From Sphingopyxis granuli NBRC 100800 (GTDB taxonomy: Bacteria > Pseudomonadota > Alphaproteobacteria > Sphingomonadales > Sphingomonadaceae): a stretch of 55,910 nt of DNA. The stretch lies in assembly GCF_001591045.1 (NCBI RefSeq), contig NZ_BCUA01000019.1:1-55910 (forward strand). The letters run 5' to 3'. Made by a program: the position numbers and the translations under genes. The stretch's first letter is position 1. Each line of letters starts with the position of its first letter. Below, piece by piece: positions 314 through 33,036 of this stretch. The notes below the pieces were generated by a model. It worked only from the letters and a program-made list of their open reading frames with translations, had not been told where the DNA came from and made no database searches.

Positions 314-640
314 TCAATCCTCCACCGTCAGCACCTCGATGCGAAGGCCGCGCCCGCTAGCGTCGGATTCGACCGCGATGTCGGCGACGATATGCCCCGG
401 CAGTCGCCATTCGACGGCGCTCAGCCGCGCGCGTAGCGAGCGGCGGATCGCTTCGAGGTCGCCGACCGCCGCCTGACAGGGGAACGCATGGCGCGCGCCG
501 ACGAAGCTGGCGCTTGCCCACGGCCGCGACGTCGATGCGCCGAGCGTGAGGCCGGGCGGCAGTTCGCGCGCGATCAGACGGCCCAGCCGGCCGTGCGGGC
601 ACGCATGGGGTCGCGGTGTGGCGAGGGACGTGTGGATCAT
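314..640 (-). CDS. Hypothetical protein, 108 aa, second gene of the small operon divergent from the S24 repressor
   Basis: I do not recognise this protein. It is 108 residues long, soluble, with no signal peptide or membrane segment. The C-terminal half (DLEAIRRSLRARLSAVEWRL, then a beta-rich tail with many Asp, Val and Ile residues) looks like a small alpha/beta fold. The start at 640 is chosen because its ATG overlaps the TGA of the upstream 87-aa gene (ATGA at 637-640), a usual sign of translational coupling. It is therefore probably made together with the HTH-like protein and controlled by the operator region at 945-999. It could be a partner or an effector of that switch; the sequence does not say which. 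Confidence 0.6.
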   Translation of the reverse strand: MIHTSLATPRPHACPHGRLGRLIARELPPGLTLGASTSRPWASASFVGARHAFPCQAAVGDLEAIRRSLRARLSAVEWRLPGHIVADIAVESDASGRGLRIEVLTVED

Positions 641-900
641 GGCCGGGCCTCCATCGTGGCGGCGCGCATTGCGCGGGTGCGGCGGTCGCCGCTCGGGCCG
701 ATGCGCCCGGCATGCCGCTCGGCCCGCCATTTGTTCATGAAATGTTCCACGCGGCATTCGACGCTGCGCCCCACCGTGCGCCCGCCGCGCAGGTCGCTGA
801 CCAACCGCGGGTCGTGGACGGCGTCCCGACCGAGAACGCTCGGCGGCATCCGCGATTCGGTCAGAAAGGCCTCGATCCGTTGCAGCAGCGTCTTTTCCAT
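637..900 (-). CDS. Small HTH-like protein, 87 aa, possible Cro-like partner of the S24 repressor
   Basis: The protein is 87 residues with the pattern of a compact lambda-repressor-type helix-turn-helix: RIEAFLTES / PPSVLGRDA / DPRLVSDLRGG / SVECRVEHFM, followed by a basic tail rich in Arg. The same four-helix spacing occurs in residues 12-61 of the S24 protein encoded divergently at 1036, where the matching steps are RLLQERG / YAQLSARIG / NPAYIQQYIKRG / DRARIAAYL. The start at 900 is preceded by GGGAGGAA at a normal distance. It has no peptidase domain. The resemblance is by eye and needs a structure prediction. Role inferred: a DNA-binding antagonist that acts at the shared operators. Confidence 0.6.
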   Translation of the reverse strand: MEKTLLQRIEAFLTESRMPPSVLGRDAVHDPRLVSDLRGGRTVGRSVECRVEHFMNKWRAERHAGRIGPSGDRRTRAMRAATMEARP

Positions 901-944
901 TCCGTTCCTCCCTATCGACATCCGGTAGCGGGCGAGTCGCCTTT

Positions 945-999
945 AATAGGATTTTTCCTATTTGAGATAGGATTTCCTACTTGTCTAGGAAAATTCCTG
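945..999. promoter_or_regulatory. Three palindromic operator-like sites between divergent regulator genes
   Basis: Three imperfectly identical palindromes lie in the 135-base divergent intergenic region. Site 1 (945-962) is AATAGGA-tttt-TCCTATT. Site 2 (968-979) is TAGGA-tt-TCCTA. Site 3 (986-999) is TAGGA-aaat-TCCTG. Their centres are near 953.5, 973.5 and 992.5, so they are 20 and 19 bases apart, about two DNA turns. A further half site (AATAGGA, 1013-1019) overlaps the ribosome-binding region of the S24 gene. The segment is very AT-rich compared with the surroundings. This is the architecture expected for cooperative repressor binding. That the S24 protein or the 87-aa protein binds here is inference. 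Confidence 0.75.
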
Positions 1000-1035
1000 T
1001 TGCTACATGCGAAATAGGAAGGAGCCCGCTGGCCG

Positions 1036-1707
1036 ATGACCGATTTCGACGACGATCCGCGTGCCGCGCTCGATCGCCTGCTGCAGGAAAGGGGGATCGA
1101 CTATGCGCAGCTTTCGGCGCGCATCGGGCGCAACCCCGCCTATATCCAGCAATATATCAAACGCGGTTCGCCGCGCCGGCTGGCGGAGGAGGACCGGGCG
1201 CGGATCGCCGCCTATCTGGGCGTGGCCGAAGCGCTGCTGGGCGGCCCGGCGCGCCGTGTCGCCGCGCCGGCGTTGCAACGCGGCGCGGGCGACATGGTGC
1301 TGGTGCCGAAGCTGGCGATCGGCGCTTCGGCCGGCGCGGGCGCGAGCATCGACGGCGAGCCGGTCGAAGGCGCGGTGGCGTTCGATCCGCGCTGGCTGCG
1401 CGACCTGGGCGCCGACCCGCGCGCGCTCAGCATCATCCGCGTCGCGGGCGATTCGATGGCGCCGACGCTGGGCGACGGCGACGACATATTGGTCGACGGC
1501 AGCGACGCGGCGACGCTGCTGCGCGACGGCATCTACGTCCTGCGGATGGACGATGCGCTGATGGTGAAGCGCGTCGCGCGCGCGCCGGGGGAGGGGCGGA
1601 TTTCGGTGATCAGCGACAATCCCCACTATCGCAGCTGGGACGATCTGCCGATGACCGCGGTGCAACTCGTCGGCCGTGTGGTATGGACCGGGCGCCGGGT
1701 GCGCTAG
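1036..1707 (+). CDS. S24 family peptidase / LexA-CI-like transcriptional repressor
   Basis: The protein has 223 residues. The N-terminal part (about 10-65) is a helix-turn-helix of the lambda-repressor type. The C-terminal part (about 88-220) is an S24 self-cleaving peptidase domain: the nucleophile Ser140 sits in VAGDSMAPTL and the general base Lys178 in ALMVKRVA, as in LexA, UmuD and CI. An Ala-Gly pair in the linker (GASAGAGAS, about 97-104) could be the self-cleavage site. Start 1036 follows GGAAGGAG at 1017-1024. In this family DNA damage and RecA filaments can trigger cleavage; whether this member responds to RecA is not known. It is divergent from two small genes and faces three palindromes, so it probably represses both directions. 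Confidence 0.9.
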   Translation: MTDFDDDPRAALDRLLQERGIDYAQLSARIGRNPAYIQQYIKRGSPRRLAEEDRARIAAYLGVAEALLGGPARRVAAPALQRGAGDMVLVPKLAIGASAGAGASIDGEPVEGAVAFDPRWLRDLGADPRALSIIRVAGDSMAPTLGDGDDILVDGSDAATLLRDGIYVLRMDDALMVKRVARAPGEGRISVISDNPHYRSWDDLPMTAVQLVGRVVWTGRRVR

Positions 1708-9419: not shown

Positions 9420-10183
9420 TGTTCGCCGCCGCGTTGCTGTGGCTCGCCGGCCCGGCATCCGCGCCGCCGCCCGTCGTCGTCCCGGCGCCTGCGGCATCGG
9501 TCGTCTTTGCGCCGCCGCTCGACCGGCCGATGCGCTATCGCGTGACGACCCGCCGCCTGGGGCGCGACGGCGGGCTGCTCGGCTTCTCGTTGCTCTACGA
9601 CCTGCAATGGCAGCGCGCGGGGCGCGGCTACCGGCTGGTCGCGACGCTGCGCCGGATCGATTCGGACGCGCCGCCCCGCGCCGTGCGCGCGCTGACCGCG
9701 GTGCTCCAGCCGCTGGTCGGCGAGGCGATGACCTATCTCGTCGCGCCCGATGGCGGCCGGATCGACCTGATCGACGCCGAACGGCTGTGGGATCGCGCGA
9801 TGGCGCGCACCGAAGCGCTTGCCGCCGCCGCGGACCAGCCCGAGGCGAAGCAACTGGCGGCGCTGGTCGCGGCGCTCTCGCCCGATGAGCGCGCGGCGCT
9901 CGCGAGCGCCGACATCCGCGCGCTGCTCGCGCCCGCCAACGCCGCCAGCCGGATCGGCGGCACCGTGTCTCCGGACGGCGACGGCAAGCGCGAAACGGCG
10001 GCAAAGGTCGAGGCTGCGACCGCCGCGGCGCAGCCGCTCACCGTCGAGAGCCTGTGGACCATCGACCGGACGACGGGACTGGTCCTGCGCGAGCAGCGGC
10101 AGAGCTGGATCGTTGGGGACGGTGGCGGCGCCCGCACGCTCGTCGAGGAGCGGATTCGCGCGATCGAACCCGACGTCTCCTGA
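9416..10183 (+). CDS. Exported protein of unknown function coupled to ctaA
   Basis: The 255-residue protein starts in the ATGA overlap at the end of ctaA. It has a signal-like N-terminus (MMFAAALLWLAGPASA), a Pro-rich linker and then a soluble beta-rich domain beginning RPMRYRVTTRRLGRDG, with a second conserved-looking region ending VESLWTIDRTTGLVLREQRQ. This layout resembles periplasmic beta-barrel or lipoprotein-localisation-like folds that bind hydrophobic material, but I do not recognise the family. Coupling to ctaA suggests a link to respiratory-complex assembly, which is only an inference. Confidence 0.75.
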   Translation: MMFAAALLWLAGPASAPPPVVVPAPAASVVFAPPLDRPMRYRVTTRRLGRDGGLLGFSLLYDLQWQRAGRGYRLVATLRRIDSDAPPRAVRALTAVLQPLVGEAMTYLVAPDGGRIDLIDAERLWDRAMARTEALAAAADQPEAKQLAALVAALSPDERAALASADIRALLAPANAASRIGGTVSPDGDGKRETAAKVEAATAAAQPLTVESLWTIDRTTGLVLREQRQSWIVGDGGGARTLVEERIRAIEPDVS

Positions 10184-17167: not shown

Positions 17168-17932
17168 ATGAGCATCAAGAAAGCCATCATCCTGTCCGCC
17201 GGGCAGGGGTCGCGGCTGCTGCCGCTGACCCGCGACCTGCCCAAATGCCTGATCGAGTTCAACGGGCGCAGCCTGCTTGGCTGGCAGGTCGCGGCGCTCG
17301 CCGCCAATGGCGTCGAGGATATCGTCGTCGTGACGGGATTCCGGACCGAGCGGGTCGAGGATCACGCACTGGAACTCTATCGCGATACCGGCGCGCGCGT
17401 TCGCACGCTGTTCAACCCCTTCTTTCAGGTTGCCGACAATCTGGGCACCTGCTGGATCGCGCGCGGGGAGATGGACCGGGATTTCATCATCCTCAACGGC
17501 GATACCATCGTGTCCGACGAGATCGTGGCCCGGCTGATTGCCGGTGCGAGCGACCCGATTACGGTCACCGTCGACGTCAAGGATGCCTATGACGACGACG
17601 ACATGAAGGTGACGCGCGATGCCGAGGGGCGGCTTCACGCCGTCGGCAAGCGTCTGTTGCCTCCCGATACCAATGCCGAATCGATCGGCATGCTGGCGTT
17701 CGTCGACGACGGCCCCGCGATCTTTCGCAACCAGGTCGACCAGATGATGCGCACCCCCGACGGCGTCGAGCGTTGGTATCTGCGGGCGATCGACATCATC
17801 GCCAAGGGCAATCGCGTCGGTACCGTGTCGATCGCGGGTCTCGACTGGCAGGAGGTCGATTTCCCGCAGGACGTCGAGGCGGCCGATGCGCTGACCGCCC
17901 GCTGGGCGACCGAGGGACGCTACGCGAAATAG
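17168..17932 (+). CDS. Phospho-alcohol cytidylyltransferase-type nucleotidyltransferase (LicC/IPCT-like)
   Basis: The 254-residue protein has a canonical sugar- or alcohol-phosphate nucleotidyltransferase start, AIILSAGQGSRLLPLT, then LPKCLIEFNGRSLL; the PKCL form is typical of choline-phosphate and inositol-phosphate cytidylyltransferases. Further signatures are NPFFQVADNLGTCW, as in LicC, and ILNGDTIV with the metal-binding Asp. It should make a CDP-alcohol such as CDP-choline, CDP-inositol or CDP-glycerol. A CDP-alcohol phosphotransferase is encoded convergently at 18345-19427, so the two are probable consecutive steps. The last 13 bases overlap the end of the HIT gene on the other strand. 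Confidence 0.85.
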   Translation: MSIKKAIILSAGQGSRLLPLTRDLPKCLIEFNGRSLLGWQVAALAANGVEDIVVVTGFRTERVEDHALELYRDTGARVRTLFNPFFQVADNLGTCWIARGEMDRDFIILNGDTIVSDEIVARLIAGASDPITVTVDVKDAYDDDDMKVTRDAEGRLHAVGKRLLPPDTNAESIGMLAFVDDGPAIFRNQVDQMMRTPDGVERWYLRAIDIIAKGNRVGTVSIAGLDWQEVDFPQDVEAADALTARWATEGRYAK

Positions 17933-30216: not shown

Positions 30217-33036
30217 ATGAACCTCGAACGACAAAGCTTCGACATCGACGAACCGCAGCCCGGACCGAGCTGGGCGCCCAGAAACTGGCCCCTGGTCGAC
30301 AGCGACGACCTGACTGCCGCGCTCGATCCGCAGCAGATGCAGGTCGCGGTGAAGGCCGCCGCGGCGAAGGCCGGCGCGCCGCTTTCGAACGCCGAGGTCG
30401 AGCGCGCGGCCGACGAGGCGATCCGCGCGATGATGCTGATCCGCACCTATCGCGTGCGCGGCCATCTGGCAGCGTCGCTCGACCCGCTCGGCCTGTCGAA
30501 GCATGAACTGCCCGCCGACCTCACCCCCGAATATCACGGTTTCGTCGGCGCCGACCAGGATCGGCCGGTCTTCCTCGGCGGAACGCTTGGGCTCGAAAAG
30601 GCGACGGTGCGCGAGATCGTGGCGATCCTGCAGGCCAATTATTGCGGGAATGTCGGCCTCGAATACATGCACATCGCCGACGTCGAGGAACGGCGCTTCC
30701 TGCAGGACCGGATGGAGGGCGCCGACAAGCATGTCGAGTTCACCCCCGAGGGCAAGCAGGCGATCCTCAACAAGGTGATCGACGCCGAGGAGTGGGAGAA
30801 ATTCCTCGCCCGCAAATATGTCGGCACCAAGCGCTTCGGCCTCGACGGCGGCGAGGCGATGATCCCCGCGATGGAAGCGATCATCAAATATGGCGGCCAG
30901 TACGGCGTGCGCGAGATCGTCTATGGCATGGCGCATCGCGGCCGGCTCAACATGCTCGCGAACGTGATGGCGAAGCCCTATCGCGTCATCTTCCACGAAT
31001 TCCAGGGCGGCAGCGCGAATCCCGAGGCCGTCGGTGGTTCGGGCGACGTCAAATATCACCTCGGCACCTCGACCGACCGCGAGTTCGACGGCATCTCGGT
31101 GCACATGTCGCTGGTGCCCAACCCGTCGCACCTCGAAGCGGTCGATCCGGTGGTGCTCGGCAAGGTGCGCGCGCAGCAGGTGGTGCGCGACGACCTGATC
31201 GAGCATGAACAGGTGCTGCCGGTGCTGATCCACGGCGACGCGGCCTTCGCGGGGCAGGGGATCGTCTGGGAATGCCTCGGCTTCTCGGGCATCCGCGGCT
31301 ACAACACGGGCGGCTGCATCCACTTCATCGTCAACAACCAGATCGGTTTCACGACCAGCCCGCAGTTCGCGCGCTCGTCGCCCTATCCGTCGGACGTCGC
31401 GAAGGGTGTCCAGGCGCCGATCCTGCACGTCAACGGCGACGATCCGGAGGCGGTGACCTTCGCCTGCAAGCTGGCGATCGACTTCCGCCAGCAGTTCAAG
31501 CGCGACATCGTCATCGACATGTGGTGCTATCGCCGCTTCGGCCATAACGAGGGCGACGAGCCGTCGTTCACCCAGCCGCTGATGTATGCCCGCATTCGCA
31601 AGCATCCGGCGGTGTCGGACCTTTATGCGCAGCGGCTGGAGGAAGAAGGGGTGATCGCGGCCGGCGATGCCGACGCGCACCGCCGCGAATTCACCGCGCG
31701 GCTCGAGGAAGAGTTCGAAGCGGCGAAGAGCTACAAGCCGAACAAGGCCGACTGGTTCGCCGGCCGCTGGTCGGGGCTGCACATGCCGGGCGATTCCGAA
31801 CATGCGCGGCGCAATATCGCGACCGGCGTTTCGGAAAAGCTGTTCGACAGCATCGGCCGCATCATGACGACCATTCCCGACGACCTGCAGGTGCACAAGA
31901 CGTTGCGCCGCGTCATCGACGCGCGCGCCGCGATGTTCGCCGACAAGAAGAATGGCGACGTGTTCGATTGGGCGACCGCCGAATCGCTCGCCTTCGGCAC
32001 CCTGCTCAGCGAAGGCTATCAGGTGCGCTTGTCGGGCCAGGATTCGGGGCGCGGCACTTTCAGCCAGCGCCACGCCGTCTGGGTCGACCAGACCGACGAG
32101 CATAAATATATTCCGCTGAAGACCGTGCCGCACGGCCGCTTCGAGGTGCTCGACAGCCCGCTGTCGGAATATGGCGTGCTCGGTTTCGAATATGGCTATG
32201 CGATGGCCGATCCGAAGAGCCTCGTGCTGTGGGAAGCGCAGTTCGGCGACTTCGCCAACGGCGCGCAGATCATGATCGACCAGTTCATCGCGGCGGGCGA
32301 GGCCAAGTGGCTGCGTGCCAACGGCCTCGTGATGCTGCTGCCGCACGGCTACGAGGGGCAGGGGCCCGAGCATAGCTCGGCGCGCCTCGAACGCTTCCTG
32401 CAACTGTGCGCGGGCGACAATATCCAGGTGTGCAATATTTCGACCCCGTCGAACTATTTCCACGTCCTGCGCCGCCAGATGCTGCGGTCGTTCCGCAAGC
32501 CGCTGATCATCATGACGCCCAAGTCACTGCTCCGCCACAAGCTGGCGGTTTCGCAGCGTAGCGACTTCATCGGCGATGCGCATTTCCGGCGCATCATGTC
32601 CGATCGCAACCCGCCCGAGGATGGCGCGATCCGGCGCGCCGTCTTCTGCTCGGGCAAGGTCGGCTATGATCTGATGGAGGCGCGCGATGCCGCGGGCCTG
32701 ACCGACACGACGATCATCCGTATCGAGCAGATCTATCCCTTCCCGGGCGAAGCGCTCGCGGCGCGGCTGAAGCGGATGACGAACCTCGAAGAGGTCGTCT
32801 GGGCGCAGGAAGAGCCGCGCAACAACGGCGCGTGGTTCTTCGTCGAGCCGCTGATAGAGGAAGCGCTGGACGAGGCCGGGCACAAGGGCAAGCGCGCCCG
32901 CTATGCCGGCCGCGCCGCCGCCGCCTCGCCGGCGACGGGCCTGATGAGCCGCCACCAGACCGAGCAAGGGGCGCTCGTCGCCGATGCGCTCGGCCTGTCG
33001 GTACGCGCCGAGATTCGCCGGACGAAGAAGAGATAA
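30217..33036 (+). CDS. sucA: 2-oxoglutarate dehydrogenase E1 component
   Basis: The 939-residue protein has the OGDH E1 order: a PSWAPRNWPL start, MAHRGRLNMLANV, then VMAKPYRVIFHEFQG, the TPP region MWCYRRFGHNEGDEPSFTQP and the C-terminal HGYEGQGPEHSSARLERFLQ. It decarboxylates 2-oxoglutarate with thiamine diphosphate and passes the succinyl group to the lipoyl group of SucB. Length is normal. Start 30217 has GGTTGGGAAA before it. The small nuclease gene sits between it and sucD. Confidence 0.97.
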   Translation: MNLERQSFDIDEPQPGPSWAPRNWPLVDSDDLTAALDPQQMQVAVKAAAAKAGAPLSNAEVERAADEAIRAMMLIRTYRVRGHLAASLDPLGLSKHELPADLTPEYHGFVGADQDRPVFLGGTLGLEKATVREIVAILQANYCGNVGLEYMHIADVEERRFLQDRMEGADKHVEFTPEGKQAILNKVIDAEEWEKFLARKYVGTKRFGLDGGEAMIPAMEAIIKYGGQYGVREIVYGMAHRGRLNMLANVMAKPYRVIFHEFQGGSANPEAVGGSGDVKYHLGTSTDREFDGISVHMSLVPNPSHLEAVDPVVLGKVRAQQVVRDDLIEHEQVLPVLIHGDAAFAGQGIVWECLGFSGIRGYNTGGCIHFIVNNQIGFTTSPQFARSSPYPSDVAKGVQAPILHVNGDDPEAVTFACKLAIDFRQQFKRDIVIDMWCYRRFGHNEGDEPSFTQPLMYARIRKHPAVSDLYAQRLEEEGVIAAGDADAHRREFTARLEEEFEAAKSYKPNKADWFAGRWSGLHMPGDSEHARRNIATGVSEKLFDSIGRIMTTIPDDLQVHKTLRRVIDARAAMFADKKNGDVFDWATAESLAFGTLLSEGYQVRLSGQDSGRGTFSQRHAVWVDQTDEHKYIPLKTVPHGRFEVLDSPLSEYGVLGFEYGYAMADPKSLVLWEAQFGDFANGAQIMIDQFIAAGEAKWLRANGLVMLLPHGYEGQGPEHSSARLERFLQLCAGDNIQVCNISTPSNYFHVLRRQMLRSFRKPLIIMTPKSLLRHKLAVSQRSDFIGDAHFRRIMSDRNPPEDGAIRRAVFCSGKVGYDLMEARDAAGLTDTTIIRIEQIYPFPGEALAARLKRMTNLEEVVWAQEEPRNNGAWFFVEPLIEEALDEAGHKGKRARYAGRAAAASPATGLMSRHQTEQGALVADALGLSVRAEIRRTKKR

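Follow-up and report, generated by a model that had tools for sequence, protein, structure and literature searches.

A putative SOS-coupled two-protein switch at a phage-type S24 repressor locus of Sphingopyxis granuli

The window analysed here, the whole 55,910-nucleotide stretch of DNA that forms positions 1–55910 of contig C19 in Sphingopyxis granuli NBRC 100800, carries a gene for an S24-family repressor facing a small operon that encodes an 87-residue protein (p87) and a 108-residue protein (p108). We consider it moderately probable that this is a domesticated phage/GTA-type repressor locus which now works as a local two-protein switch, is coupled to the SOS response and gates p108. In the proposed mechanism, S24 would sit on TAGGA/TCCTA sites lying over both of the facing promoters and thereby keep the p87–p108 operon off, and LexA would act as a second lock whose position differs between lineages: at the promoter of p87 or, as in the host, inside the p87 gene and ahead of p108. 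Removal of LexA by DNA damage is established biology; at this locus damage would thus release the second lock, the S24 protein would probably cleave itself, and p87, as a Cro-like helix-turn-helix protein, could then compete for the operators and hold S24 low, with p108 as the presumed output of the switch. The features on which this reading is based are as follows.

314–640, minus strand: p108, 108 aa, a diverged relative of phage/GTA tail-completion (tail-terminator-like) proteins, as placed by iterative search and profile comparison and, tentatively, by fold ranking
637–900, minus strand: p87, an 87-aa Cro-like helix-turn-helix protein, according to its AlphaFold2 model, fold matches and occurrence in the family
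732–747, no strand: LexA box TGTTC-N6-TGTTC (GTTC-N7-GTTC at 733–747), within the p87 coding sequence and upstream of p108
947–960, no strand: putative operator TAGGA-N4-TCCTA on the p87 side, overlapping the p87 −10 read by eye
959–987, minus strand: candidate p87 promoter TAGACA-N17-CAAATA, by eye only
968–979, no strand: extra, locus-specific palindrome TAGGA-N2-TCCTA, seen in the sequence and overlapping the central dyad
974–991, no strand: central dyad TTCCTA-N6-TAGGAA, the best-conserved element of the gap, holding the shared −35 bases (by eye)
981–1009, plus strand: candidate S24 promoter TTGTCT-N17-TACATG, by eye only
986–999, no strand: operator-like TAGGA-N4-TCCTG in the S24 promoter region, seen in the sequence and kept in related loci
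1012–1020, no strand: lone half site AAATAGGAA near the S24 start, seen in the sequence and found in many Sphingopyxis loci
1036–1707, plus strand: S24-family repressor, 223 aa, with a putative N-terminal HTH and an S24 peptidase domain

The initial annotation had described the locus as a CI/Cro-like switch, and its layout, the fold of the small protein and the conservation of the pair are all supported, whereas the LexA box, the confinement of the exact operators to the locus and a paralogous pair on contig C3 had been missed. The peptidase domain that it assigned to the S24 protein is borne out by a match to Peptidase_S24 (PF00717) above the cut-off (E 2.5e-16), and residues 12–221 match the phage repressor family phrog_4 (E 4.8e-40); Pfam HTH matches to the N-terminus lie below the cut-off. 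Ser140 and Lys178, which we take to be the Ser–Lys dyad, are each kept in 166 of 168 aligned S24 proteins, and the position of Ala99–Gly100, presumably a possible cleavage site, is Ala-Gly in 162 of the 168. On the strength of these residues, the S24 protein probably undergoes self-cleavage after DNA damage. It matches 264 phage records, every one at less than 60% identity.

The open reading frames are arranged as first described, with a 4-nt overlap between the p108 and p87 genes. For p87, which had been likened by eye to a helix-turn-helix protein, the AlphaFold2 model and the fold matches agree on a lambda-repressor-like helix-turn-helix, with modest scores. Neither p87 nor p108 matched any family model at E ≤ 10, searches of PDB sequences with p87, p108 and S24 returned nothing useful, and p87 gave no match at E ≤ 1 among 50,697 phage records; three plasmid records were found (E 4e-7, 1e-5 and 0.05). 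Comparison of the p87 profile with the profile of the S24 HTH gave no significant match, and the idea that p87 is a copy of the S24 HTH was rejected, the score being exceeded by at least five of 30 shuffled controls, which were built with a slightly different column rule.

Conservation was surveyed in 246 genomes of the host order, 163 within the host family and 83 outside it. The p87 profile was found in 155 of these genomes (154 of 163 in the family and one of 83 outside) and the S24 profile, at E ≤ 1e-20, in 188 (151 of 163 and 37 of 83, respectively). The expectation that the two genes are conserved together in relatives is confirmed by their joint presence in 150 of the 163 family genomes, with p87 alone in four, S24 alone in one and neither in eight. 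Among the 150 matches listed for each profile, 105 p87 genes have S24 within 1 kb, and all 105 of these resolvable pairs are divergent, in agreement with the layout initially reported. A further 45 listed p87 matches had no listed S24 neighbour; 20 were inspected, and 16 have S24 in the locus, the exceptions being L066, L068, L069 and L074. Conversely, 45 listed S24 matches had no listed p87, 25 of them in the host family and 20 outside; of the former, 20 were inspected together with L067, and p87 was present in 18 of the 20, not in L086 and L095, while of the latter 18 were inspected and p87 was present in one (L056). From the collected loci, which include 100 of the 103 pairs listed for other genomes, 148 divergent pairs were taken, 147 of them with gaps of 71–202 nt; L067, in which p87 and S24 lie 2.9 kb apart, is included in the 148 and excluded from the 147, and L201 was left out of the pair counts because of its start choice. 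Gap sequences are distinct in 147 of the 148 pairs, but pair counts are not counts of independent events, since the loci are related to each other. The named collection returned 13 loci, in 12 of which (Sphingopyxis and one Sphingomonadales bin) p87 faces S24, with p108 next in 11 of the 12 and MIP nearby in 10 of the 12; the thirteenth match, L013, falls within a region of unrelated genes and was taken as due to chance.

The gap between p87 and S24 contains palindromes of the form TAGGA-N4-TCCTA together with the central dyad TTCCTACTTGTCTAGGAA. As read by eye, the candidate promoters of p87 and S24 face each other and have −35 bases in common; a consensus promoter scan of positions 300–1100 found none. 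The conservation of the gap elements far exceeds that in dinucleotide shuffles, TCCTA-N6-TAGGA being present in 104 of 147 gaps against 0.0 and TAGGA-N4-TCCTA in 78 of 147 against 0.05. In the 4.26-Mb genome the exact TAGGA-N4-TCCTA palindrome occurs solely at 947–960, and the central dyad, with up to three mismatches allowed, solely at 974–991; because the exact operators are found nowhere else, the switch looks local, and a dispersed S24 regulon was rejected on the lack of a second exact palindrome, or of a second dyad within three mismatches, genome-wide. In the 18 outgroup S24 loci, TAGGA-N4-TCCTA is present in four (0.0 in shuffles) and the half site in 17 (6.8 in shuffles), and in L068, L069 and L074, where p87 is present with no S24 next to it, the dyad has decayed and the LexA box is intact. 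Since outgroup S24 loci that mostly lack p87 carry the sites, and since the dyad decays without S24, the S24 protein is the likely binder of the TAGGA/TCCTA sites.

The same observations bear on the part played by p87. S24 could be the sole switch protein at the operator, with p87 serving as an antirepressor, activator or co-repressor and with no mutual repression, as might be expected from sister families in which S24 and TAGGA sites occur without p87 and from the failure of the p87 profile to match the S24 HTH. We regard this as rather unlikely, as the model of p87 is that of a lambda-repressor-like, DNA-binding domain and as p87 hardly ever occurs without S24 in the host family. In the preferred two-protein switch, p87 would act as Cro does, competing with S24 for the operators and keeping S24 low.

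Passages of PMC3323433 and PMC8565304 give GTTC-N7-GTTC as the alphaproteobacterial LexA motif, and a passage of PMC13384398 gives (T/A)TGTTC-N6-TGTTC as the Caulobacter consensus. Within the 55.9-kb window the strict consensus occurs only at 732–747; a second, loose GTTC-N7-GTTC match at 17399–17413 falls short of it. In the own genome the motif also lies upstream of lexA (contig C14, 31629–31643, with the gene match starting at 31675) and of recA (contig C57, 9845–9859, with the gene match starting at 9997). Genome-wide, GTTC-N7-GTTC is found 61 and 59 times per strand, compared with 24 and 24 for the reversed control, and many of the loose genome-wide matches are therefore due to chance. 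Across the 148 loci the box is intergenic in 55, within p87 in 60 and, as the exact motif, in neither place in 33; no locus has both, whereas 22 would be expected if the two placements were independent (Fisher p 1.2e-17). Shuffled gaps give 0.35 boxes per 147. Judged by these sequences, LexA very likely acts at the p87–S24 locus.

Whether the match inside p87 is itself an operator depends on how far the protein accounts for it. EHFMN, the peptide encoded there, lies in helix 4 of the p87 model and could be kept for protein function, with the identity of the DNA as a by-product; indeed, when the codons of p87 were resampled synonymously, the loose motif turned up in 22 of 148 loci on average and in at most 33 over 200 trials, which means that the conserved peptide by itself accounts for some of the in-gene signal. 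That the match is such a by-product and no operator is nevertheless distinctly unlikely. The identical 15-mer is present in 59 of the 60 in-gene loci, with the remaining one a single base off, whereas codon use for EHFMN predicts it in six; in these 60 loci E, H and N never vary, and in the two remaining classes they are mixed; the complete lack of loci with an intergenic box as well speaks against it; and the strict consensus, as given for Caulobacter in that passage of PMC13384398, is present in 55 of the 60 in-gene boxes, as it is in 38 of the 55 intergenic boxes. Read as an operator, the box is a clear case of a regulatory site that is embedded in a protein sequence and apparently fixes it. 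On the S24 tree (FastTree; L076 left out), at least 11 changes of LexA placement are needed. An extended version of the preferred reading can be put forward only tentatively: the LexA operator would have alternated, with at least this many changes, between the promoter and the cro-like coding sequence, never occupying both, so that the overlapping DNA site dictates part of the protein, and the output would be a protein of tail-terminator descent by which the assembly of GTA or phage tails is steered when DNA is damaged.

The flanks of the in-gene box show no conservation beyond codon constraint and no recognisable internal promoter lies ahead of p108; a roadblock formed by LexA is therefore no less likely than a promoter inside the gene. 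Both placements put the box upstream of p108, which would make p108 the common LexA target wherever it is present. It was undetected in 28 of the 148 pairs, 24 of which form a second class with an intergenic LexA box and without p108. In the 18 outgroup loci no LexA box occurs within 800 nt of S24, which says only that none is there, since chance also gives that result (0.36 expected).

The initial annotation had stated that no phage genes lie nearby, which does not hold, as phage-type sequence is present in the form of p108. A jackhmmer chain links p108 to tail-completion relatives, phmmer connects it with outgroup proteins at E 1.2e-8 in a ten-sequence set, one such outgroup relative (L048) matches PF11367 at E 9.6e-22, hhalign gives 98.4%, and fold ranking tentatively places p108 with the tail-completion/terminator proteins as well. 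Searched directly against Pfam at E ≤ 10, p108 has no match and misses the curated PF11367 score; being below Pfam detection, it is called a diverged relative and not a PF11367 member. Iterative search, profile comparison and, tentatively, fold ranking thus join p108 to the PF11367/GTA tail-terminators through sister-family members, in which the clear PF11367 form adjoins S24. It differs from the tail-terminators in sitting with regulators, and a further PF11367 gene of the genome belongs to a GTA-like cluster. This cluster (L266; G000:C106:1–10555) is of head–tail type by eye and has its PF11367 gene at 1850–2170. The kinship is a weak hint that the most likely target of p108 is the assembly of GTA or phage tails.

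It also bears on the two origins that had been proposed, domestication and independent descent. An independent regulator without phage links is disfavoured, as p108 leads to PF11367, and domestication fits better, given the kinship of p108 with a tail-completion protein of phage/GTA type. The switch is apparently derived from an old phage, and it is kept by most of the sampled family members. That the locus is a decaying, functionless prophage remnant would agree with the phage/GTA type of p108 and with the absence of both genes from eight of the 163 family genomes, yet all three genes (S24, p87 and p108) are under purifying selection, the locus is retained in most family genomes and the operators are strongly conserved, which makes such a remnant highly improbable. 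The domesticated switch therefore remains the preferred reading, and it offers a test case for phage-repressor domestication, with sister families that have S24 and a tail-completion gene, lack p87 in 17 of 18 loci and lack a LexA box within 800 nt in 18 of 18.

Like the CI (C2)–Cro systems of lambda, P22 and 434, the locus has an S24 repressor that faces a small lambda-repressor-like HTH protein, with shared operators over two facing promoters. It differs in being chromosomal and family-wide, with a built-in LexA box and with mutual repression that is putative; in addition, no similarity between the p87 sequence and Cro models could be detected, and the second gene is a relative of a tail protein instead of phage early genes. 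For Francisella, PMC13148647 is reported to describe a phage-type S24 repressor that has likewise been taken over and tied to the DNA-damage response; there the lineage is discussed for its lack of LexA, whereas here LexA is present and would form the second lock. Caulobacter higBA, as described in PMC13384398, likewise combines a local HTH regulator with LexA on one small operon of an alphaproteobacterium; those are toxin–antitoxin genes with the LexA site in the promoter, whereas here the pair is S24/p87 and the site lies within the first gene in 60 of 148 loci. A literature search covering titles and abstract openings, with subscription journals sparsely represented, found no published description of the locus. 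The results point to a switch that is linked to DNA damage and retained widely, although its small proteins are annotated only as hypothetical.

The paralogous pair in the own genome (L016; G000:C3:16000–34000), an example of the second class without p108, is located at C3:23144–24071 and has an intergenic LexA box; its p87-like and S24-like proteins are 45% and 53% identical to those of the window. It lies between conjugative-looking genes (by eye) and genes for a WYL protein, an SNF2-type helicase and a type III methyltransferase, and it may gate defence cargo.

Several related loci have a different content. Among the outgroup loci L046–L052, L056, L057 and L060, several have an ORF of about 130–180 aa between S24 and the tail-completion gene; that of L050 has no Pfam match, and that of L056 comes after p87, which may represent an intermediate state. 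At L012 (3992–5460) p108 is absent and p87 is followed by lysis-like phage ORFs (by eye), one of which resembles an ORF of L263. In genome G080 (C1:2792528–2831854; L263–L265, L066 and L086), about 39 kb separate S24 from p87; this insertion has phage-like ends (by eye) and cuts the start of p87, and the locus keeps its in-gene LexA box and p108.
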